In this document: piece by piece, positions 2,940 through 14,236 of the stretch
How the letters are laid out: each line of letters opens with the position of its first letter
Numbering within the stretch: the stretch's first letter is position 1
DNA from: Methanoregula sp.
GTDB taxonomy: Archaea > Halobacteriota > Methanomicrobia > Methanomicrobiales > Methanospirillaceae
DNA length: 64,000 bases
Direction of reading: 5' to 3'
NCBI GenBank assembly: GCA_030694985.1
Contig: JAUYTV010000031.1
Span: 1 to 64,000 of the forward strand
Translations under genes and position numbers: made by a program
Notes under the pieces: generated by a model
The model's database searches: none
Seen by the model: only the letters and a program-made list of their open reading frames with translations
Told to the model about the DNA's origin: nothing

Positions 2940-4442
2940 TTACGGTATGTACCGCTCGACCTCCCCAAAGGTCACAAGCTTTCCACCGTCGAGAACCGAT
3001 ACCGCCCCATGACCCCCGCAGATTAGACAGTGTTTTTCCGTTGATACCAGTTTGTTATCAGTATCCTGTGCCAGTTCAAGCAAACCTTTTCGTTCCTTCT
3101 TTGCCATATCGCTGTCCACATTCACTGACGTTACAAGAAATGCGGCAAGCGAACTATAATCCGCCCGTTCTTTTGAGAGACTGGAAAAATTGATCACACT
3201 GTCTGCGGCAAACAACAGACCAGATGTCTGTGAATACAAAAACACCTGACCGGCCGTATGTCCGCTTAAACCGTCCAGCACTTCGAGTTCAATATTTCCG
3301 ATAGAGACCATGCCAATCACCGGAAAAATTCCCCGGGTATTTCCGTTTGGTGTAGAAAAACAATCGATCTCTTCTGGAGTATTGAACCGTGAGAACAGGT
3401 TGATCATCTTTGTGTAGAATTCATCCAGAGTAGAGTGATCACTTCGTGAGCCGTAAGCCCGGTTATTTGTCCGGATGATCTCAAGAGTACTCGGGTGCAT
3501 GAGCACCGGCACTGCAAAAAAACCGGCAGCCCCGCAGTGATCCGCATCGGCATGGGTTACAACAATACGGGTGATTTTCTTTAAGTCTCCCACTCCATAC
3601 CGAAAAAACATGGCAATTATATCCTGATGATAAATCCCGTATCCGGTATCAATCATCAGCAGGCTGTCTCCGGATCTTAAAAGGAATATATTTCCACCAC
3701 ATGGTACCTGGAAACAGAACAATGTCGTGTCATCATCTATCCGGAATTTCTGGACATCAGCATAAAAATTTTTACCGGTAGTATATTTCAAAGTCTGACC
3801 AGTCTTAAAAACGCTTTCAAAAACCTGTTTGGGGTCACAATCACGGTTCATTAATTCCTGTGCAATGCGGTTGGTGTCTGCCAGAAACGAGAGCAGAAAT
3901 TTATCCTCATATTCACCGATAAGTTCACGGATAGCCTGCGCATATCGGACATAAAACACCGTATCATCCAGTTGTTTTCCGGAATTATCGTATTCAATGA
4001 TCTCCAAGCGGTACAGGGATTTTAACTGGTTTAACAAACGGTCAACTACTGCACCCTGTTCAAGATTCAGGCTTACCGTAAGACGATCCGGGTGCCTACC
4101 CTTATCATCGAAATCCAAAAATGAGATGTTTGCGTCAGCCGATGTTGTTAAACTTAAAAAATCGTATAGTGCACCCGGACGGTGGGGCAGGTATACGGAG
4201 AATTTTAAGAAACTCTGGGGTTTTATGGAACTCTGGAGATACCCGATCTGTTCAAGATCCTTTGTTATCTTTTTAAAGGATTCTTCCGATACAGTAACCT
4301 CATAAAAAACCGTCCCGGGATCAATGCGGCGGTCAAACTGGATACGGTTGATATTGCCTTCATATTTTTTGATAATCTCTGCAACCCGGTAAAGCGATCC
4401 CGGAGTATCGGGCATGTGAGCGATAAAAGAGAATTTCATCAA
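2940..4442 (-). CDS. Tandem ACT domains fused to a metallo-beta-lactamase hydrolase
   Basis: 500 aa. Residues ~1-75 and ~78-160 look like two ACT modules (MPDTPGSLYRVAEII and LPHRPGALYDFLSL are typical ACT ligand-loop starts). After a helical linker, residues ~245-500 form a metallo-beta-lactamase fold with THADADHCGAAG (HxDxDH metal motif), a GHTAGQVFLYS segment and LLFAADSV. ACT domains bind amino acids or similar ligands, and MBL proteins of this type are often thioester or phosphodiester hydrolases. Fusion of the two suggests a ligand-controlled hydrolase, but I cannot name a substrate. Monocistronic-looking: a ~190-bp AT-rich gap separates it from the SIS gene and it has its own leader. 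Confidence 0.75.
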   Translation of the reverse strand: MMKFSFIAHMPDTPGSLYRVAEIIKKYEGNINRIQFDRRIDPGTVFYEVTVSEESFKKITKDLEQIGYLQSSIKPQSFLKFSVYLPHRPGALYDFLSLTTSADANISFLDFDDKGRHPDRLTVSLNLEQGAVVDRLLNQLKSLYRLEIIEYDNSGKQLDDTVFYVRYAQAIRELIGEYEDKFLLSFLADTNRIAQELMNRDCDPKQVFESVFKTGQTLKYTTGKNFYADVQKFRIDDDTTLFCFQVPCGGNIFLLRSGDSLLMIDTGYGIYHQDIIAMFFRYGVGDLKKITRIVVTHADADHCGAAGFFAVPVLMHPSTLEIIRTNNRAYGSRSDHSTLDEFYTKMINLFSRFNTPEEIDCFSTPNGNTRGIFPVIGMVSIGNIELEVLDGLSGHTAGQVFLYSQTSGLLFAADSVINFSSLSKERADYSSLAAFLVTSVNVDSDMAKKERKGLLELAQDTDNKLVSTEKHCLICGGHGAVSVLDGGKLVTFGEVERYIP

Positions 4443-4553: not shown

Positions 4554-5465
4554 TTACGGCCTTTTCCATACAAGGGCAATTACACCGGTGATTAAAAGCC
4601 CGATAAGTACGGTTACCGGCGAAAGAGGAATTGAAGAGGTGCTTTTTTGAAGCGTACCTGCTGTAACACCCGTTGAATTCGGCGTTATTGCAGCAGAAGG
4701 GGAAATGCCAGCGGTTATAGATGACGTTGGATTACCAGATGACGCTCCTTCGGTTGTCATGACTGTAGTTGGCGTTTTTGGAGGAAGAACTGTAAACATT
4801 TTGACAAGAGGACTTGTCAGTGAGGGGTTGCTCATCGTGATATAATATTGTCCGGGTGGCATGTCAACATGGAAATTATAATTGAAATATCCGGATGAAC
4901 TTACTGGCGAAGAATATGTGCGAAGAGTTTTTCCGGATATGTCGGTTAGATCAATGCGCATGTAAGATAATCCCCGCTCTGCAAAACCGGTCAACGATAC
5001 ATAATCGGCAAATTTCGCAGGGTTAGGAGTAAGGTTTGCAAAAAATTCTGGTTTTTTCATGAACACTGAAGTTGTCGAGAAGATTTCAGGATGGTTCAGA
5101 TCTGTAGCAGTGAGAGTATACCGTGCAGTCTGCATCTTTTCAATTCCTTTGATACTCGATGTATACCATGCAAACTTCCAGGTACCATCAGGGTTCACTT
5201 CAACAGGATTTCCTGCACCGGGAATTCCGTTGAGATCATATATGGGAACTCCCTCTGCAGGGAGACCGGGGCCGTTGATTCGCAGAAATATAATATTTCC
5301 AACCGTGTTTTGTCCATCAAAAATAATCGTATCACCAATATAGCTCCCACCCGATCCACGGTAGGCAATGCTTACGGTCCCATTCACACCCAGCACCGGC
5401 TGAATAATACAAATAGCTGCAATCAGCAGCACAAGAACTAAAAAAACCCTTCGCATAATACTCAT
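4554..5465 (-). CDS. Secreted surface protein with C-terminal SPLSPVT-type anchor
   Basis: About 303 aa. An N-terminal signal peptide (RRVFLVLVLLIAAICIIQPVLG) is followed by a beta-rich ectodomain containing YIGDTIIFDGQNT and FLRINGPGLPAEG, a pattern I associate with methanogen S-layer-like proteins of Methanomicrobiales. A second Ig-like part and a Ser/Thr/Pro-rich stalk (~residues 215-275) follow. The C-terminus is IPLSPVT, a ~17-residue hydrophobic helix and VWKRP. The same tail type is seen in the proteins at 30549 and 56530. Start taken at ATG 5465 after GAGGCGAGG; 5456 and 5480 are alternatives. Function unknown; cell-surface display is inferred. Confidence 0.7.
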   Translation of the reverse strand: MSIMRRVFLVLVLLIAAICIIQPVLGVNGTVSIAYRGSGGSYIGDTIIFDGQNTVGNIIFLRINGPGLPAEGVPIYDLNGIPGAGNPVEVNPDGTWKFAWYTSSIKGIEKMQTARYTLTATDLNHPEIFSTTSVFMKKPEFFANLTPNPAKFADYVSLTGFAERGLSYMRIDLTDISGKTLRTYSSPVSSSGYFNYNFHVDMPPGQYYITMSNPSLTSPLVKMFTVLPPKTPTTVMTTEGASSGNPTSSITAGISPSAAITPNSTGVTAGTLQKSTSSIPLSPVTVLIGLLITGVIALVWKRP

Positions 5466-5480
5466 TTCCTCGCCTCTCAT

Positions 5481-5626: not shown

Positions 5627-7657
5627 ATGACCGACGTTGAGTTGGCAATACAAAATGGAGAACTCCAGTTAAAAACAGCAATTACGAATATACAGGGAAC
5701 ATTTTCCTATGAAGATACTGCCTATCACCTCCCCATCTCCTATGCCCTGACAGGTATACCTGTGCATGACCGGAATACCTCTTTGGATGTTTTTTCCCGT
5801 ACTAAAGATAATTCACTGGTGGCCTCAGAAATAATCCTTGCAAAAAAAACTGCCGGGAATGGAAAAGAAGAATCGCCCTACACAGGTTTTATTGGCGATA
5901 GTACAATCCGTAAGCTTGGGTATTCACTTGTTGACGGAAGTATTCTTGGACTTGCACTCATTGTCGGAACCCCTGAAAGTGCCGGGTCTGCTGCTGCCAT
6001 CTGCCGCGAACTCCAGGAAAAATATATGCTCACCTTCCTTGCCGGCCCGGTCATACCCTCATTATCATCTGCGGGTGTAAAACTGGGTCTTGAATATCGC
6101 CTGATCCCCCTTGGCTCAAGTGCATTATATAGTGTGCACTTTGTCGATATCATTGCCCGCGTAGCCATGATGTTTGGGGGAGTCACTCCTGGAGATATGC
6201 ACCGGCTTTTATCCTATGCAGCGGAACGGGCAAAGGCAATTGTGATCATTCTTCCCGGTCTTTCTGATGAAGAAATTGCACTTGTTGATGGTATGCGGGT
6301 GCTTGGATTTCCCATCCTGTCATTGGGAGATTATCAAAAAGGCGCATGGATCTCTGCAACTCCGGAAAATATTGTCCGAACCGGCATGGAACTAAAAGGC
6401 ATTCGTGTCAATGTGACTGCAATTCCGATTCCCATGGGATGTTCTCCAGCGTTTGAAGGTAAAAGTATCCGGAAAGAAGAGATGTTTGTGGAGTTTGGTG
6501 GCGGCAGATCACCGGCATTTGAATTACTGCAAATGAAAAATGCAAATGAGATCAAAGACGGTCAGGTAACAGTCATTGGTCCTGAGATCGATTCCATGAA
6601 AGAAGGGTCTGCAAACCCGCTGGCAATCATCATCGAAGTGGCCGGAAAAACCATGAAAAAAGATTATGAGCCCGTTCTCGAAAGAAGGATTCATAATTTT
6701 GTTAACTACGGGGAAGGATCCTGGCATGTAGCCCAGCGGGATCTCATCTGGGTCCGGTTATCAAAAGAGGCTGTGGCAAAAGGTGTAAGGATCGAACATC
6801 TGGGAAAACTTCTCGCAAGTAAGTTCCGCATGGATTTTCCGCAGTTGCTTGATGCGGTATCGGTCACTCTCATCACAGATCCGGAAAAAATACTTGTAGC
6901 AAAGACAGAAGCAGAACGGGTCTATGATGAGCGGGATGCCCGCATCAAAGGGATGCGTGACGGGGATGTAAACACATTTTATTCCTGCACGCTCTGCCAG
7001 ACATTTGCACCAAACCATGTCTGCGTGATCACACCTGAACGCCCTGCCCTGTGCGGAGCCATCAGCTGGCTGGATGGAAAAATCGCTTACGAGATCTCAC
7101 CTGCTGGTGCAAACCAGCCAATAGAAAAAGGTGCGGTAATCAACGTACTGAACGGTGAATTTGATGGTGTAAACCGGTTCGTCAAAAAAGCCAGCCATGG
7201 AGAAATTGACCGCTGTTCACTCTACAGTGTCATGGAATACCCGATGACCTGTTGCGGGTGTTTTGAATGCATTGCCCTGATGCTTCCGGAAGTGAACGGG
7301 ATCATGGTTGTGAACCGTGAGTTCAAAGGTCTCACTCCTTCGGGCATGTCGTTTTCCACCCTTGCCGGCACAATTGGCGGCGGTGCACAGACACCGGGGT
7401 TTGCAGGAATTTCAAAAGGGTATATTCTTTCAGACCGGTTCTTACAAGGTGAGGGGGGAATAGAACGCCTTGTCTGGATGCCTGCGCAACTTAAAGAAGA
7501 ACTCAAACCGCGCCTGATAAAAAAATTTAATGAGCAGGGCAAACCGGACCTGTTCGACAAGATCGCAGATGAAACAAAAGCCGCTACAATCGAAGATCTC
7601 ATGGTGTATCTCGATAGCGTAAAACACCCGGCCCAGACTATGAAACCACTGGTGTGA
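5627..7657 (+). CDS. acsB: Acetyl-CoA synthase, bacterial AcsB-type (CdhC homologue)
   Basis: 676 aa. Acetyl-CoA synthase makes or cleaves acetyl-CoA at the Ni-Ni-[4Fe-4S] A-cluster, exchanging CO, CoA and a methyl group with the corrinoid iron-sulfur protein. All A-cluster ligands are present: Cys454, Cys457, Cys466 and Cys476, plus the distal-nickel Cys543-Gly544-Cys545. The set keeps the spacing of Moorella AcsB (506, 509, 518, 528, 595-597) with a constant offset of 52, and Phe460 matches Moorella Phe512. The protein has the long N-terminal domain of bacterial AcsB, unlike the shorter archaeal CdhC (~470 aa), but lacks about 52 residues of it. First gene of a six-gene operon that has no CO dehydrogenase. 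TTG 5621 is an alternative start. Confidence 0.93.
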   Translation: MTDVELAIQNGELQLKTAITNIQGTFSYEDTAYHLPISYALTGIPVHDRNTSLDVFSRTKDNSLVASEIILAKKTAGNGKEESPYTGFIGDSTIRKLGYSLVDGSILGLALIVGTPESAGSAAAICRELQEKYMLTFLAGPVIPSLSSAGVKLGLEYRLIPLGSSALYSVHFVDIIARVAMMFGGVTPGDMHRLLSYAAERAKAIVIILPGLSDEEIALVDGMRVLGFPILSLGDYQKGAWISATPENIVRTGMELKGIRVNVTAIPIPMGCSPAFEGKSIRKEEMFVEFGGGRSPAFELLQMKNANEIKDGQVTVIGPEIDSMKEGSANPLAIIIEVAGKTMKKDYEPVLERRIHNFVNYGEGSWHVAQRDLIWVRLSKEAVAKGVRIEHLGKLLASKFRMDFPQLLDAVSVTLITDPEKILVAKTEAERVYDERDARIKGMRDGDVNTFYSCTLCQTFAPNHVCVITPERPALCGAISWLDGKIAYEISPAGANQPIEKGAVINVLNGEFDGVNRFVKKASHGEIDRCSLYSVMEYPMTCCGCFECIALMLPEVNGIMVVNREFKGLTPSGMSFSTLAGTIGGGAQTPGFAGISKGYILSDRFLQGEGGIERLVWMPAQLKEELKPRLIKKFNEQGKPDLFDKIADETKAATIEDLMVYLDSVKHPAQTMKPLV

Positions 7658-7661
7658 GATC

Positions 7662-8618
7662 ATGGTGTCTGATGTGAATTTTGGATGGAGCAGTACTATA
7701 GTTAAAGTAATTCTCGGTGCAACAAAAACAAACGGTGGAACCCGCAGGCTCTCATACCAGATTGGCGGAGGAACGACACTTCCGTTCCTTGAAGGGACAC
7801 CGGACTTTTCAGGTCCGCTCATCGCCTTTGAGATCTGTGATGACCCGCAGAACTGGTCTTCGATTGTCAGGAACTATTGTCAGGACATTGTAAATGATTG
7901 CGGAGAATGGGCACATGCTGCAGATTCGGTCTATGGCGCAGACATGATCCGCCTGTACCTGACCAGCACCCGGCAGCGGAATTTTTCAGATATTGCATCT
8001 GTAGGAAAAACAGTTGAATCCGTGTTATCCAAAACCAGCCTGCCGCTCATCATTGAGGGGAGCAATGAATCAACAATTGACAGCGAGGTATTCTTAAAAT
8101 GCGGAGAAGCTGGTGAGGGAGAACGCCTGCTTCTTGGAACTGCTGAAGCGGGCAGGTACCGCAGTATTGCTGCTGCCGCAATGGCTTATAATCATTCGGT
8201 GATTGCCCAGTCGCCCATTGATGTCAACCTGGCAAAACAACTCAACATCCTGTTAAAAGAGATAGGTGTAGCAAGAGACCACATAGTCATCGATCCATAT
8301 ACCGGCTCGCTGGGCTATGGATTTGAGTATTCTTATTCAGCCATGGAACGGATACGGTTCGCTGCGCTTAAAGGCGATGCCGATCTTGCCATGCCTGTCA
8401 TCTGCTCAGCCATTGATTCGTTAACCGTTAAGGAAGTAAGGGATGCAGAACCAGCCATTCAGGACGATATTGCAGTCCAGTGGGAATTCACAACCGGACT
8501 TGCAGCTGCAGCAGCCGGTGCAGAGATCATCTGTGTGCGGCACCCACGGACAATACCCCTGCTCAGAAAAGCATTTACAAATCTTAAATCCGAAAAAACA
8601 GATATGGGGGGGCAGTAA
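7662..8618 (+). CDS. acsD: Corrinoid iron-sulfur protein small (delta) subunit, AcsD/CdhD
   Basis: 318 aa TIM-barrel subunit that pairs with AcsC to hold and present the corrinoid cofactor carrying the methyl group. The family signature DPYTGSLGYGFEYSYSAMER appears near residue 210, and the length fits bacterial AcsD (~310-320 aa) rather than archaeal CdhD (~400+ aa). It starts four bases after the acsB stop and ends one base before acsC, indicating one transcript with matched subunit levels. In archaea the complex exchanges methyl groups with tetrahydrosarcinapterin; in bacteria a separate AcsE loads methyl from tetrahydrofolate, and no acsE is seen here. The pterin specificity is therefore open. 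Confidence 0.92.
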   Translation: MVSDVNFGWSSTIVKVILGATKTNGGTRRLSYQIGGGTTLPFLEGTPDFSGPLIAFEICDDPQNWSSIVRNYCQDIVNDCGEWAHAADSVYGADMIRLYLTSTRQRNFSDIASVGKTVESVLSKTSLPLIIEGSNESTIDSEVFLKCGEAGEGERLLLGTAEAGRYRSIAAAAMAYNHSVIAQSPIDVNLAKQLNILLKEIGVARDHIVIDPYTGSLGYGFEYSYSAMERIRFAALKGDADLAMPVICSAIDSLTVKEVRDAEPAIQDDIAVQWEFTTGLAAAAAGAEIICVRHPRTIPLLRKAFTNLKSEKTDMGGQ

Positions 8619-8619
8619 C

Positions 8620-9954
8620 ATGGCACTCAAAGCTCTTGACATTTACAAACTCCTGCCCAGAAAAAACTGCAAGGAATGCGGTGATCCCACCTGCCTGACC
8701 TTTGCCATGAAACTTGCCGGGGGGAAAACTGATGTAGACCTCTGCCCGTATCTTGATGATGCAGCCAAAGCGGTACTGGGCGCTACAACCCGCCCGCCAA
8801 TCCGGCTTGTGAAACTCGGGATTGGTGAACGATCTTTTGCAGTTGGTGAAGAGTTTGTACTCTATCGTCACGAAAAAACGTTTTATCACCCACCGGGAAT
8901 TTTGTTTAAGATTTCCGACACTCAGACTACAGAAGATATTCAGGCAATAACAACGCGTGTGCGGGATGAATCGTTTACCCGTGTGGGAGTGGATCTCCGG
9001 TTTAACGGGATTGCAATTGAAAATACCAGTGGAACTCCAGATACTTTTGCAAGAGCGGTTGAAACGGTTGAAAAAATTGCGGACCTCCCGCTGGTACTCA
9101 TGGCCAGAGACCCTGCTGCACTATCAGCAGCTCTTATGCATTGCGGAACCTATCGTCCACTAATCCACGCAGCTACACCGGAAAATTACAAGGAATTCTG
9201 TGCACTGGCAAAAAACCATAGTTGCCCGCTGGTAATTAAAGCAAATAATATCGATACACTTGCACAACTCGCAAAAGACTGCACAGCAAATGGAATGCAG
9301 GATCTGATACTGGATCTTTTACCGGAATCATTACAGGCATTTATTGTCCGGTCAACAACTATCCGCCAGCTTGCCATCACCCGGGCAGCACCCGATCTCG
9401 GGTACCCGGTATTTCTCGATGCTTCCGTAATGGAGATGCCGGATGCAGCCATTGCACTGGGCATTGTAAAATATGCTTCAGTCATTATTTCTTATCCGCT
9501 TTCTCCTGCAACTGCAAGAGCAGCACTGACCCTGCGCCAGAATATTTACACCGATCCCCAGAAACCGATCCAGATGAACCCGGGTCTGTATCGTGTGGGA
9601 GACCCTAAAAAGGACGCACCTGTCTTAATGACGGTGAACTTCTCGCTCACATTCTTTACCCTCCAGGGATATCTTGAATCCACACGTGTGCCCTGCTTCA
9701 TGCTGATTGTCGACACCGAAGGACTCTCTGTGCTCACCGCTGTTGCTGCAGGAAAACTCAGTGAGATGCTGGTTAAAGACTCCATAAAAAAATTTGCAGT
9801 TGAAGATGAGGTATCCCACAGAAAACTCATTATACCGGGATACGCATCCCCGCTTTCGGGCAGGATCGAGGAGGCAACCGGATGGAAAGTACTGGTAGGG
9901 CCACGGGATGCAGCAGAAATTAGTGATTTTTTAAATGAGGAGTGGAAACAATAA
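8620..9954 (+). CDS. acsC: Corrinoid iron-sulfur protein large (gamma) subunit, AcsC/CdhE
   Basis: 444 aa, the family's normal length. The N-terminal [4Fe-4S] domain has Cys17, Cys20, Cys25 and Cys42 (CKECGDPTC...C), the same numbering as the clostridial protein; this low-potential cluster reactivates oxidised cobalt. A TIM barrel follows, and the C-terminal ~120 residues form the corrinoid-binding domain. The ATG at 8620 is preceded by a G-rich ribosome site (GGGGGGG at 8606-8612) and begins MALKALDIYKLLP, as in homologues; an upstream in-frame start would overlap acsD by 176 bases and add non-homologous residues. The stop abuts the RACo-like gene with no gap. Confidence 0.92.
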   Translation: MALKALDIYKLLPRKNCKECGDPTCLTFAMKLAGGKTDVDLCPYLDDAAKAVLGATTRPPIRLVKLGIGERSFAVGEEFVLYRHEKTFYHPPGILFKISDTQTTEDIQAITTRVRDESFTRVGVDLRFNGIAIENTSGTPDTFARAVETVEKIADLPLVLMARDPAALSAALMHCGTYRPLIHAATPENYKEFCALAKNHSCPLVIKANNIDTLAQLAKDCTANGMQDLILDLLPESLQAFIVRSTTIRQLAITRAAPDLGYPVFLDASVMEMPDAAIALGIVKYASVIISYPLSPATARAALTLRQNIYTDPQKPIQMNPGLYRVGDPKKDAPVLMTVNFSLTFFTLQGYLESTRVPCFMLIVDTEGLSVLTAVAAGKLSEMLVKDSIKKFAVEDEVSHRKLIIPGYASPLSGRIEEATGWKVLVGPRDAAEISDFLNEEWKQ

Positions 9955-11856
9955 ATGCGTACGGTTACTTTTATTCCCGGTTATCGTAAGATCGATGCTG
10001 AACAGGGTAGCACAATTCTTGATGCTGCCCAGCGTGCTGGATTAAATATCAACGTAGTCTGCGGCGGTCAGGGAAAATGCGGGAAATGCATTGTCTATGT
10101 CCGGTCTGGAAAGACAATTTTTGACCAGCAGAAATACAAGCGTTTTTTCACAGATGATGAACTAGCACAGGGCGCATGTCTTGCCTGCCAGACAACTATT
10201 GAAAGTGATTTGCAGGTGTTTATTCCTGACAGCACATCTATCCAGGAACAGAAGATCCTCATTGACGGGCAGGAAACTGCAATGGAATTTCACCCGTCGG
10301 TCAGGAAATATTACATTGAACTCCAACCTCCAACTATTTCCGATCCCTCTCCGGATCTTTCCCGGTTGCTCTGGGGCATCCAGAAAGCCGGAGGCCCGTC
10401 AGCAGAAAAAATCTATGCACCTTTAGAGATGCTAAGGAAAATTCCGGCTATCCTTCGCCATTCCGAGTGGAAAGCAACCGGAACCGTTGCCCTTGTGCCG
10501 GGCGGATACCGCCTTGTCGATGTGCAGGAAAATGATACGGCAAAAAGACTCTATGGAGCAGCAGTAGATCTGGGTTCTACAACAATTGTTGTATACATCT
10601 GGGATCTTGTCACCGGTAAAATAGCTGGTGTTGCTTCGAATTACAACCGGCAGATCAGTTGTGGGGAAGATATTTTAGCACGCGTAAATTTTGCCCGTAA
10701 GAACGGGCTTTCAAAGCTTCAGGCACTTGCTACCGAGAGCATTAATTTGGCTATAACTACTGCATCCAACACAGCAGGCATCGACCGGGAAGATATCTAC
10801 GAGATTGTTGTAGCAGGAAATACCGTAATGACCCACATGCTGCTGGGTATCGATCCGGCATATATGATCTCTGAACCGTATGTTCCTGTAGTGCGAAGAG
10901 CATTATCTGTATCAACAGGCAGGATTGGTATAACCTGTAATCCCAACGGGGGACTCTTTGTCTTTCCGGCAGTCAGCGATTTTATCGGAGGTGACATCAT
11001 TGCAGATATCCTTGCCTGTGGGATGAGCGAGAAAGAAGAGATCTCCCTTCTTATAGATATCGGTACCAACTTTGAAGTTGTTCTTGGCAACAGTGAGTGG
11101 ATGTTTTCATGCGCTGGTGCGGCCGGCCCCGCACTCGAAGGTGGCGAAGTACTCTTCGGCATGCGGGCAAACCCGGGTGCAATTGAAAAGATCTCTATCG
11201 AACCGGGCACGCTTAACCCTTTGTATACCACGATCAATGGTATAAAACCACAGGGGATCTGCGGCTCCGGACTTATCGATCTTTTAGCAGAACTCCTCTG
11301 CACCTGTGTCATTGACAGAACCGGGCGCATCAACACGGGTATAGCCAATCCACGAATACGGACAAACAGCCACTTCCCCGAATACGTTATTGAATGGGCA
11401 AACAGAACCGGTATAGGAAAAGATATTGTCATTACCGAAAACGATATCAAAAATCTGATCATGAGTAAAGCGTCAGTACATGCAGCCTGTGTCACGCTGA
11501 TGAACCAGGCCGGCATTAACCGAAAAGAGATAAGTACCATCTATTTTGCCGGAGCATTTGGAAACTACATCAACAAAAAGAATGCAACCATCATTGGCCT
11601 AATTCCGGAAATAAGTATTGATAAGATTGTCAATATCGGAAACGGGGCGGTAACCGGTGCAAATATTGCACTTATCAACCGGAGGATGAGAAAAACACTT
11701 GACGAAATTGCATGCCGGATTGCCTATATCGAGCTCAATGCGGAATCGTCTTTTATGGACGAATACACCTCCGGCACATTCCTGCCCCATACGGAACTAA
11801 CGCTCTTTCCCATGGTTCAGAAACTCCTGGATACCTGTCGGATAACAAAGGAGTAA
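9955..11856 (+). CDS. RACo-like corrinoid activation/regeneration protein (2Fe-2S + ASKHA ATPase)
   Basis: 633 aa. Residues ~1-95 form a plant-type [2Fe-2S] ferredoxin domain with Cys36, Cys42, Cys45 and Cys78; after a linker, from ~200 on, comes a DUF4445/ASKHA actin-like ATPase fold (AVDLGSTTIVVYIWD phosphate-1 loop; DIGTNFEVVLGN; AGAAGPALEGGEV). This architecture is that of RACo (acsV/orf7), which uses ATP to drive reduction of inactive Co(II) corrinoid iron-sulfur protein to Co(I). Its position directly after acsC makes the corrinoid protein of this operon the likely client. The presence of a bacterial-style reactivase supports the idea that the operon was acquired from bacteria. Confidence 0.9.
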   Translation: MRTVTFIPGYRKIDAEQGSTILDAAQRAGLNINVVCGGQGKCGKCIVYVRSGKTIFDQQKYKRFFTDDELAQGACLACQTTIESDLQVFIPDSTSIQEQKILIDGQETAMEFHPSVRKYYIELQPPTISDPSPDLSRLLWGIQKAGGPSAEKIYAPLEMLRKIPAILRHSEWKATGTVALVPGGYRLVDVQENDTAKRLYGAAVDLGSTTIVVYIWDLVTGKIAGVASNYNRQISCGEDILARVNFARKNGLSKLQALATESINLAITTASNTAGIDREDIYEIVVAGNTVMTHMLLGIDPAYMISEPYVPVVRRALSVSTGRIGITCNPNGGLFVFPAVSDFIGGDIIADILACGMSEKEEISLLIDIGTNFEVVLGNSEWMFSCAGAAGPALEGGEVLFGMRANPGAIEKISIEPGTLNPLYTTINGIKPQGICGSGLIDLLAELLCTCVIDRTGRINTGIANPRIRTNSHFPEYVIEWANRTGIGKDIVITENDIKNLIMSKASVHAACVTLMNQAGINRKEISTIYFAGAFGNYINKKNATIIGLIPEISIDKIVNIGNGAVTGANIALINRRMRKTLDEIACRIAYIELNAESSFMDEYTSGTFLPHTELTLFPMVQKLLDTCRITKE

Positions 11857-11863
11857 AAAACCT

Positions 11864-12898
11864 ATGGCAAAGATGATTCCTTCCCCCCATTCACTGGCAA
11901 CTGGTATCGGTTCACTCCCGAATTTAGATCCATTGGAAGCATGCCGTGATGTGCTGGAGATCTTCCCTGAATTTCCCTATATCCCCACCCTGCCCTGCAG
12001 AGGATTGTCTGAGAGAATTGTTTTTAGTGATTCTGAACAGTTACCCGGCCGAATCATACTGGATGAACGGCTCTTTTTTGACAGCACTTCAGACCCGACT
12101 GCTGCCATGGAACAGGTGTATATGGATTATGTTGAGGGAAATTTTGCACCCTATGCCCTGCACACCGAATATTCATCAGCATTTACCGAGATGATGATGC
12201 ACAAACTTCCTGGTGTCAGCATCCTGAAATTCCAGATCACCGGACCGGTCACTTTCGGTATGCAGGTGGTAGATGAGGCCAAACGTCCCATCTATTTTGA
12301 TTCGCAGCTGGCAGATGTCCTCGGAAAGATGCTGGCTTTAAAGGCACGCTGGTGCGAAGTTGAGATGCAGGAAAAGACCGGTGTTAAAGAGACCCTGATT
12401 ATTCTTAACGAACCATATTTTGCATCGCTGGGATCTTCGGTTGTACCTGTTGACAGGGAGACGGTAAAGGCCAACTGGGAAGATGCCGCGGCACTGGTAA
12501 CAGGGGGGTTAGGGGTTCATTGCTGCTCGAATACGGACTGGGAATTTGTCATCAGCCTCAATCCTTCAGTTGTGTCACTCGATGCATATACAACAGCTAA
12601 AGAGTTCCTGTTGTACACTGATACTATCGTTTCTTACATGGAGCGCGGAGGTGTTGTCGCATGGGGGATTGTGCCTTCTGACCCACAGCTTTTTACTCAG
12701 GAGACCACTGATTCACTCTATAACAAATATCTCGATATCCGCACGCGGCTATGTAACAATATGCCAGAAGATCTCTTTGATGCCCAGTCACTAATTACAC
12801 CAAGTTGCGGGATCCGTTTTGCTGATCGCCCCACTGCCCGGGCAATTATGCAGGCAGCATCAGAAATTTCGCATCGTATCCGTAACAAAAACGGGTGA
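11864..12898 (+). CDS. Core methionine synthase: MetE C-terminal-domain-only protein, MesB-like
   Basis: 344 aa, one MetE-C/UROD-superfamily TIM barrel; full MetE is ~750 aa, so the folate-binding N-terminal half is absent. An ATGIGSLPN start, KFQITGPVTFG, LNEPYFASLGSS and the zinc-type HCC (His219-x-Cys221) with a later Cys315 fit homocysteine-activating methyltransferases. Folate-independent short methionine synthases (MesA-D) are known to take methyl from corrinoid proteins; MesB is linked to organisms with a Wood-Ljungdahl corrinoid protein such as Dehalococcoides. Location inside the corrinoid-protein operon (7 bases after the reactivase) points to methyl-AcsCD as donor and homocysteine as acceptor. 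A methylcorrinoid:thiol methyltransferase with another acceptor is the alternative. Confidence 0.78.
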   Translation: MAKMIPSPHSLATGIGSLPNLDPLEACRDVLEIFPEFPYIPTLPCRGLSERIVFSDSEQLPGRIILDERLFFDSTSDPTAAMEQVYMDYVEGNFAPYALHTEYSSAFTEMMMHKLPGVSILKFQITGPVTFGMQVVDEAKRPIYFDSQLADVLGKMLALKARWCEVEMQEKTGVKETLIILNEPYFASLGSSVVPVDRETVKANWEDAAALVTGGLGVHCCSNTDWEFVISLNPSVVSLDAYTTAKEFLLYTDTIVSYMERGGVVAWGIVPSDPQLFTQETTDSLYNKYLDIRTRLCNNMPEDLFDAQSLITPSCGIRFADRPTARAIMQAASEISHRIRNKNG

Positions 12899-12920
12899 TT
12901 GCAGTCAGAAAGGAACGTCC

Positions 12921-13688
12921 ATGCACCACCATCCTTTTGTCATAGTAATTTCTGGAAAAGGCGGAACAGGAAAGACCACTCTCAGTTCACTGCTCATCCG
13001 CTCCTTAGTCGAAACAGGAGAAAAACCGGTGCTCGCAGTAGATGCTGATCCTAATGCAAATCTTCACGAGGCTCTTGGAGTTTCAGTCAGTGAGACGCTG
13101 GGAAGCATGCGAGAAGAAGCATTTACAAGAAAGATTCCTCCCGGCATGAACCGGCATGATTATGTCCGTTTCAGGTTCCGGCAGGCGCTTGTTGAAGCAG
13201 AAGGATTTGATCTCATTGCAATGGGAAGACCCGAAGGCAGCGGGTGTTACTGTTTTGCAAACGATCTCCTGTCAGAATGTATGACAGAGCTGGAGCGGGA
13301 ATACCGTTTCATTGTTATAGACACTGAAGCAGGAATGGAACATATCAGCAGGGGAACGATAGGAAAACCCGATATGCTGTTGATAGTCAGTGATCCCGGA
13401 GCTCGGGGCTTGCGGACTATCTTACGCATACAAGAGATCGCTACCCAGCTTGGGCTGGAACCTGCAAAGATCCATATCGTTTTTAATAAATACAAAACCG
13501 GCACTGCACCGGTAGATATCGGCAATGAAACGCCTGTTGCAATTCTTCCTTATGATCCCGAAGTTGAGGCTGCCGATCTTGCTGCAACGCCGGTTTCACA
13601 AATTCCTCCTCACAGTCCCGCCCGGATTGTTGTCTGGGAACTGGCAGAAAAGATCCGTTCACTTGCAAAAGAACATACCAGCTCATAA
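12921..13688 (+). CDS. cooC: CooC/AcsF-type nickel-insertion ATPase
   Basis: 255 aa MinD/Mrp-like ATPase. The deviant Walker A SGKGGTGKTTLSS is at residues ~11-23, AVDADPNANLHEALG follows, and GSGCYCFAND carries the CxC motif that binds metal at the dimer interface in CooC. VIDTEAGMEHISRGT is the Walker B/switch II region. CooC loads nickel into CO dehydrogenase; its close homologue AcsF serves acetyl-CoA synthase. With no CO dehydrogenase in this operon, maturation of the ACS A-cluster is the more likely job (inference). ATG 12921 has AAGGA seven bases upstream; the frame is open further up but reaches back into the methionine synthase gene. The stop is five bases from the convergent arginine decarboxylase. 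Confidence 0.88.
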   Translation: MHHHPFVIVISGKGGTGKTTLSSLLIRSLVETGEKPVLAVDADPNANLHEALGVSVSETLGSMREEAFTRKIPPGMNRHDYVRFRFRQALVEAEGFDLIAMGRPEGSGCYCFANDLLSECMTELEREYRFIVIDTEAGMEHISRGTIGKPDMLLIVSDPGARGLRTILRIQEIATQLGLEPAKIHIVFNKYKTGTAPVDIGNETPVAILPYDPEVEAADLAATPVSQIPPHSPARIVVWELAEKIRSLAKEHTSS

Positions 13689-13693
13689 AAAAA

Positions 13694-14236
13694 TCAGATG
13701 AAAACTGCCACTGCAATGGTAGTTGTCCAGAGACCGTTTTTGTCTCCTTCTGCCGATTGGCAGACATGCTTTGTCTTGATAATTTTTCCGCTTGCCTTGT
13801 AGATCTGTTCACGTTCCTGCCAGGCAAGACTTGCATCGAACTTGATTCCCAGTGTGGTGGCAAGCATGGTAGCTGCAAGATCTTCAGCATATTCCCCTGT
13901 TTTTTCCTGGGTTTCTCCGTATGCATGATGTTCTGACAGATATCCGTACTCTGCAGCTTCTTTGGGAAGGGCAAGACCGATGGCAGCAGATACCAGACGA
14001 TTTGGTTCGTTTGTATCATTTCTGGCCATCACACAGTACGTAATTCCCCCGGGAAGCAGTTGATCCAATCCATCAGATTTGCAGATCTGTTTACAGTTAG
14101 GAGGAAAGATACTCGAAACGTACACCAGATTACATTTTTCTATCCCGGCCCTTCGCAATGCCAGTTCAAACGAGGCAAGACGGTCTTTATGGACACCCAC
14201 ACCTTTGGTGAAAAAAATCCTGGTCGGAACATACAT
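13694..14236 (-). CDS. pdaD: Pyruvoyl-dependent arginine decarboxylase
   Basis: 180 aa. The enzyme decarboxylates arginine to agmatine for polyamine synthesis and is made as a proenzyme that cleaves itself to form a pyruvoyl group. The cleavage site is visible in [11 protein letters not shown] (between Ser41 and Ser42). Other family segments are [29 protein letters not shown] at the N-terminus and the central GGITYCVMA. Length is near the Methanocaldococcus enzyme (165 aa). The ATG at 14236 is followed upstream by an AT-rich promoter-like stretch (TTTAAATATTA near 14239-14251), so the leader is very short. Confidence 0.93.

Follow-up and report, generated by a model that had tools for sequence, protein, structure and literature searches.

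A bacterial-type acetyl-CoA synthase paired with a core methionine synthase in Methanoregula: a candidate module for methyl donation independent of CO dehydrogenase

Introduction

Genes for acetyl-CoA synthase (ACS) are routinely taken to mean that an organism has the Wood-Ljungdahl pathway and is autotrophic. Dehalococcoides mccartyi has an incomplete form of this pathway together with a core methionine synthase (Zhuang et al. 2014, referred to by PMC7857596 and PMC11334346; Deobald et al. 2020, PMC7005905). In Dehalococcoides, the methyl group of methionine derives from that of acetate, according to labelling work outlined in PMC7857596 and PMC7005905, and CO accumulates (PMC11334346). For methanogens, Price et al. 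2021 (PMC7857596) place mesB, the gene for a core methionine synthase, beside acsC and acsD in some species, and describe some Methanomicrobiales as having both MesA and MesB. Here, we analyze a 64,000-nucleotide stretch of DNA from Methanoregula sp. (assembly GCA_030694985.1, contig JAUYTV010000031.1, positions 1 to 64,000; hereafter the window), which contains an operon of six genes at 5627–13688, here called the acs-mesB operon. It encodes a bacterial-type ACS (AcsB), both subunits of a corrinoid protein (AcsC and AcsD), a reductive activator of that protein (RACo), a MesB-like methionine synthase, and an ATPase of the AcsF/CooC type.

Likened by gene content, the operon recalls the D. mccartyi route in having ACS, AcsCD and an enzyme with the MetE core, in lacking CO dehydrogenase (CODH) and AcsE, and in acetate being the proposed source of the methyl group. 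Unlike D. mccartyi, the host is a methanogen, with abundant methyl-tetrahydromethanopterin (methyl-H4MPT) and a second synthase, MesA; the genes form a single operon that also contains RACo and AcsF, and the route is predicted here from genes. With the bacterial CODH/ACS systems of Moorella, Carboxydothermus and Clostridium autoethanogenum, it shares the N-terminal domain of AcsB, the A-cluster, AcsCD, RACo and CooC/AcsF; it differs from them in the lack of acsA and acsE, the addition of MesB, a shorter N-terminal region of AcsB, and a change of Ile146 to Tyr. The archaeal CODH/ACS (CdhABCDE) has a homologous ACS core, a corrinoid protein and RACo, but it also has CdhA and CdhB, a long CdhD and a CdhC that lacks the N-terminal domain, and it has no MesB.

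Results

In the Methanomicrobiales, AcsB and MesB are inherited as a unit, independently of CODH. We surveyed 159 genomes of the order, each at least 85% complete, with counts that ignore relatedness. Bacterial-type AcsB was found in 75 of them, MesB in 75, and both in 74; the single AcsB-only genome and the single MesB-only genome are both fragmented assemblies. The two genes lie on one contig in 70 genomes, at a median distance of 5.6 kb, and in seven genera some species have MesB and others lack it. Genomes that have the operon show no enrichment of bacterial-type CODH (42 of 74, versus 53 of 83 without it; Fisher p 0.41). CODH of either type is lacking in 14 of the 74 operon-bearing genomes, which represent eight genera and include one closed chromosome (G037) and others that are 96–99% complete. 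Archaeal CdhA, present in 45 genomes and always accompanied by the short CdhC, is commoner in genomes with the operon (33/74) than in those without (11/83), an enrichment that may reflect shared ancestry. At four loci, genes for CODH and CooC lie about 2 kb behind the operon, and the genes between AcsF and CODH at loci L095, L096 and L097 show no informative family. As a separate observation, many congeners carry a full archaeal cdhABCDE-RACo cluster (loci L136–L140) in addition to the acs-mesB operon, and hence two CO/ACS systems per genome.

The host assembly comprises 2.49 Mb in 58 contigs and is 96% complete; its nearest named relatives are metagenome-assembled genomes of Methanoregula and other Methanomicrobiales. 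A preliminary description, drawn from the window alone, had claimed an operon without CODH or AcsE and had proposed looking for CODH, and for another CdhC, across the whole genome. Neither of these was found: no protein in this 96% complete assembly matches the CODH models PF03063, TIGR01702 and TIGR00314, the archaeal CdhABCDE set is absent from the genome, and the only ACS is that of the operon. The claim about AcsE holds genome-wide as well, since the sole PF00809 match is dihydropteroate synthase (TIGR01496, 195 bits against a cut-off of 163). An acetate-CoA ligase was found above cut-off, and one MetE-family protein on another contig is MesA (NF002119, 398 bits; cut-off 258). The absence of CODH, true of this genome, is no rule for the operon, as all 25 congeners surveyed carry some CODH.

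With CODH in every one of these congeners, an assembly gap in the host had to be considered. Two close relatives, G124 and G125, have CODH and CooC immediately after a fwd/ech cluster. The host has the same cluster, at 87–89% DNA identity, on contig C42, where it is followed by 15.5 kb of other genes. This interval (C42, 27.6–43.1 kb) joins fwd to the gene that forms the other flank of CODH in G124, and contains neither Ns nor a CODH gene. One unbroken contig thus spans both flanks, and the syntenic site is closed without CODH. Judged from sequence, this arrangement supports a real loss of CODH in the host. In G124 the CODH region borders on the mcr operon; in the host, a contig end cuts this operon off 43 bases behind mcrA, so that a relocated CODH gene is conceivable. 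In the two relatives themselves, it may be added, bacterial-type CODH and CooC adjoin a cluster for Ech hydrogenase and formylmethanofuran dehydrogenase, and in G124 the mcr operon as well, with most of these genes assigned from their first residues.

The operon itself consists of six intact genes on the plus strand, separated by 4, 1, 0, 7 and 22 bases, in gene order, as the preliminary description had it (one direction, gaps of 0–22 bases); its family assignments also hold. No CODH gene lies within the operon or beside it. The gene set is not a chance assemblage, because the same six genes recur in identical order at about 70 Methanomicrobiales loci; in relatives, the AcsF/CooC-like gene is always the last of the operon. 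At four loci (L070, L025, L068 and L008), the operon is interrupted by insertions, which include no recognisable methionine or CODH gene as judged from first residues only. Rfam found no riboswitch in the window, a single tRNA being the sole match, and promoter and terminator patterns there are no commoner than in shuffled sequence. We discounted decay of the operon: all its open reading frames are intact and the active sites are kept.

AcsB (5627–7657, plus strand; 676 aa) has the bacterial architecture, with an N-terminal domain. It matches the curated equivalog NF040764 over its full length (915 bits; cut-off 800) and is 47% identical over 623 aa to the ACS of Carboxydothermus; to archaeal CdhC of the same order, it is 43–45% identical in the C-terminal core only. 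The N-terminal region is shorter than in bacteria, and PF18537 stays below cut-off. The A-cluster ligands (C-x2-C-x8-C-x9-C) and the CGC motif are present in all 63 AcsB relatives. In Moorella ACS, five residues form the CO alcove: G145, I146, V149, F229 and F512 (PMC11321310). With positions mapped by alignment, four of the five are invariant here, and the equivalent of I146 is Tyr in 63 of 63 AcsB sequences.

The corrinoid protein is bacterial in type as well. By family, its subunits give a CdhD match (AcsD) and a CdhE-type match (AcsC). AcsD (7662–8618, plus; PF03599, 129 bits) has as its closest solved structure the small subunit of the Moorella corrinoid iron-sulfur protein (4djd_D, 222 bits), and AcsC (8620–9954, plus; NF003195, 555 bits, cut-off 306) the Carboxydothermus corrinoid iron-sulfur protein (2h9a_A, 398 bits). 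RACo (9955–11856, plus) is AcsV-like: its four Pfam domains (Fer2, RACo_linker, Raco_middle and RACo_C_ter) all exceed their cut-offs, and the match to NF040756 AcsV (565 bits) is below the cut-off of 800. The last gene (12921–13688, plus) encodes a P-loop ATPase of the CooC/AcsF type, probably the nickel-insertion factor of ACS, whose best PDB match is CooC (3kje, 75 bits, E 5e-20). The iron-sulfur motifs are intact, alongside the zinc ligands and the A-cluster.

In a tree of AcsC, the operon proteins and archaeal CdhE of the same order form two separate clades (100/100). Together with the identity pattern of AcsB, this shows that the operon did not arise by recent duplication of the Cdh cluster native to the lineage; we rejected that origin also on account of the different architecture. 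By architecture, a bacterial ancestry of the operon is likely. The preliminary description had proposed a bacterial origin, which fits the type of AcsB, AcsC and AcsD. The trees single out no bacterial donor; that of AcsC includes few bacterial rows.

The fifth gene (11864–12898, plus) encodes a protein of 344 aa, which corresponds to the catalytic barrel of MetE without the folate-binding domain. It has no match in Pfam, even at E 10, nor in NCBIfam, and none in a single-sequence search of the PDB. A profile of its family gives only weak matches to MetE (E 0.39). Aligned by hhalign with MesA of the same genome, this profile reaches a probability of 94.9, with zinc motif on zinc motif. An AlphaFold2 model of the protein (predicted local distance difference test score, pLDDT, 94.6) has 3rpd as its best fold match (Z 26.0; root-mean-square deviation 2.8 over 280 residues). 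MetE halves, the C-terminal one among them, follow at Z 23–25, then uroporphyrinogen decarboxylase at about 20 and the methanogen coenzyme M methyltransferase 4ay7 at 19.9. The modelled protein thus has the MetE catalytic fold, with methionine synthases clearly closest (Z 23–26).

We aligned 92 relatives of the MesB-like protein, of which 84 are archaeal and eight more distant (seven bacterial, one from the Thermoplasmatota). The zinc ligands, H219, C221, D240 and C315, are invariant in the 84 archaeal sequences, and are of the HCDC type of the MesB family as given by Price et al. 2021. The same source calls the equivalents of MetE Ser433 and Asp599 "mostly conserved" in MesB (PMC7857596); in the present clade, by contrast, these two homocysteine-binding residues (E. 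coli MetE numbering) are mostly replaced. The window's protein has Ser17 and Asn182 at the two positions. All eight distant relatives keep the Ser and Asp pair, as do the window's nearest relatives and Methanospirillum. In a tree of MesB, the two residues interchange inside the Methanomicrobiales clade (Ser/Ala/Gly and Asp/Asn/Ser), while the zinc ligands stay constant. A contig binned as Betaproteobacteria (PHCO01000101.1) encodes a RACo 88% and a MesB 77% identical to those of the window; it was most likely misbinned and belongs to a methanogen.

Discussion

On balance, we think it probable that the operon encodes a CODH-independent module for the donation of methyl groups from acetyl-CoA to methionine. 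Acetate would be activated to acetyl-CoA. AcsB, into which the CooC/AcsF-type ATPase would insert nickel, would then split acetyl-CoA into CoA, CO and a methyl group. This group would pass to the corrinoid of AcsCD, which RACo would keep active, and the MesB-like zinc enzyme would transfer it from AcsCD to homocysteine, yielding methionine. CO would be released or, in relatives that have an unlinked CODH, oxidized by that enzyme. The absence of CODH and AcsE, the acetate-CoA ligase, the AcsB-MesB unit and the bacterial type of the proteins are the traces expected of a methyl donor that splits acetyl-CoA. Because ACS is paired with MesB and not with CODH, the pattern is best explained by movement of a methyl group between acetyl-CoA and the acceptor of MesB, by way of AcsCD. 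Cleavage is the more likely direction, since the CODH-free genomes have no known enzyme to make CO from CO2. The direction of flux, the release of CO, and homocysteine as acceptor with methionine as product are what we infer from this gene content.

Several observations weigh against this interpretation. Genomics cannot give the direction of flux, and the survey counts do not allow for relatedness. Some CODH is present in 60 of the 74 operon-bearing genomes. A second methionine synthase, MesA, occurs in the host and in 156 of the 159 genomes, so that methionine synthesis in itself does not depend on the acs-mesB route. The preliminary description had proposed a methionine route fed by the splitting of acetyl-CoA: the genome-wide lack of CODH and AcsE, the acetate-CoA ligase and the AcsB-MesB unit agree with it, and, with MesA present, it is not the sole methionine route. 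At the homocysteine-binding positions, the equivalent of Ser433 is Ser in 17, Ala in 48 and Gly in 17 of 82 sequences of the clade, and that of Asp599 is Asn in 72, Asp in 10 and Ser in 2 of 84. This variability, read from an alignment, would call for caution about the methyl acceptor, and would not disprove homocysteine.

It is also conceivable, though unlikely, that methyl-H4MPT charges AcsCD directly and MesB draws on AcsCD, with ACS acting in the synthetic direction on CO from the environment or from an unlinked CODH. Methanogens hold much methyl-H4MPT, an unlinked CODH of the CooS type is present in 42 of the 74 operon-bearing genomes, and four relatives have CODH and CooC about 2 kb behind the operon. 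Archaeal CODH/ACS works without AcsE, and archaeal CdhDE is considered to exchange methyl groups with methyl-tetrahydro(sarcina)pterin (methyl-H4(S)PT) in the absence of that enzyme, so in an archaeon the lack of AcsE is less telling. Yet the operon encodes the short, bacterial type of AcsD; relatives of this type depend on AcsE, which the genome lacks. Direct charging also leaves unexplained why AcsB and MesB are inseparable and why 14 genomes keep the operon without CODH. These same 14 genomes speak against a reading to which we give little credence, namely that MesB replaces AcsE in reverse, moving a methyl group from a methyl thioether such as methyl-coenzyme M to AcsCD, so that ACS makes acetyl-CoA from CO; this scheme needs CO, and yet the operon is kept where CODH is absent. 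In its favour, the gene set has MesB where AcsE would be expected, the coupling of MesB to AcsB is strict, zinc thiol methyltransferases of its fold include the coenzyme M methyltransferase 4ay7, the homocysteine-binding residues are relaxed in the clade, and methionine is already supplied by MesA. The closest folds, however, are methionine synthases by a clear margin, and the window's nearest species and Methanospirillum keep the canonical Ser and Asp.

There is a slim chance that the genome has a CODH hidden by an assembly gap, and that an ordinary Wood-Ljungdahl pathway has the operon as its ACS half. The congeners, all of which have CODH, the division of a 96% complete genome into 58 contigs, and the break of the mcr operon just behind mcrA fit such a gap; the N-free contig that spans the CODH interval of G124 with other genes, and the recurrence of CODH-free operon genomes in eight genera, a closed chromosome among them, do not. 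Very doubtful, too, is a broader scheme, in which the bacterial-type ACS of the order is an acetyl-CoA-dependent methyl donor to MesB with no role in carbon fixation, and in which most species use a thiol other than homocysteine as acceptor, for example coenzyme M; the methyl group would then end in methyl-coenzyme M or another methyl thioether, and CO would be released.

The Dehalococcoides scheme and the adjacency of mesB to acsC and acsD were already known; new, as far as the passages of Price et al. 2021 (PMC7857596) extend, is the strict coupling of AcsB and MesB with CODH dispensable, as these passages contain no report of CODH-independent coupling of ACS and MesB. The findings suggest that many hydrogen-using methanogens split acetyl-CoA to obtain the methyl group of methionine, as Dehalococcoides does. 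If so, a methanogen, a producer of methyl groups by trade, would draw this one separately from acetyl-CoA, with CO as a by-product, despite having MesA and methyl-H4MPT. If this ACS works as a methyl donor, CO2 fixation in the Methanomicrobiales cannot be deduced from its presence, and many annotations would need to change; the close AcsB-MesB pairing can serve as a simple genomic test. A related puzzle is posed by strains of Methanospirillum purgamenti, which require acetate and have CODH/ACS genes beside nitrogenase, of a function described as unclear by the authors (PMC11346949); these genes may or may not be the acs-mesB operon.

Finally, the operon is bounded in the window by two minus-strand genes that lie outside it, one for an S-layer-like protein upstream (4554–5480) and one for a pyruvoyl-dependent arginine decarboxylase downstream (13694–14236). 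Further upstream, at 2940–4442 on the minus strand, a single protein combines two domains, one of the ACT and one of the metallo-beta-lactamase family.

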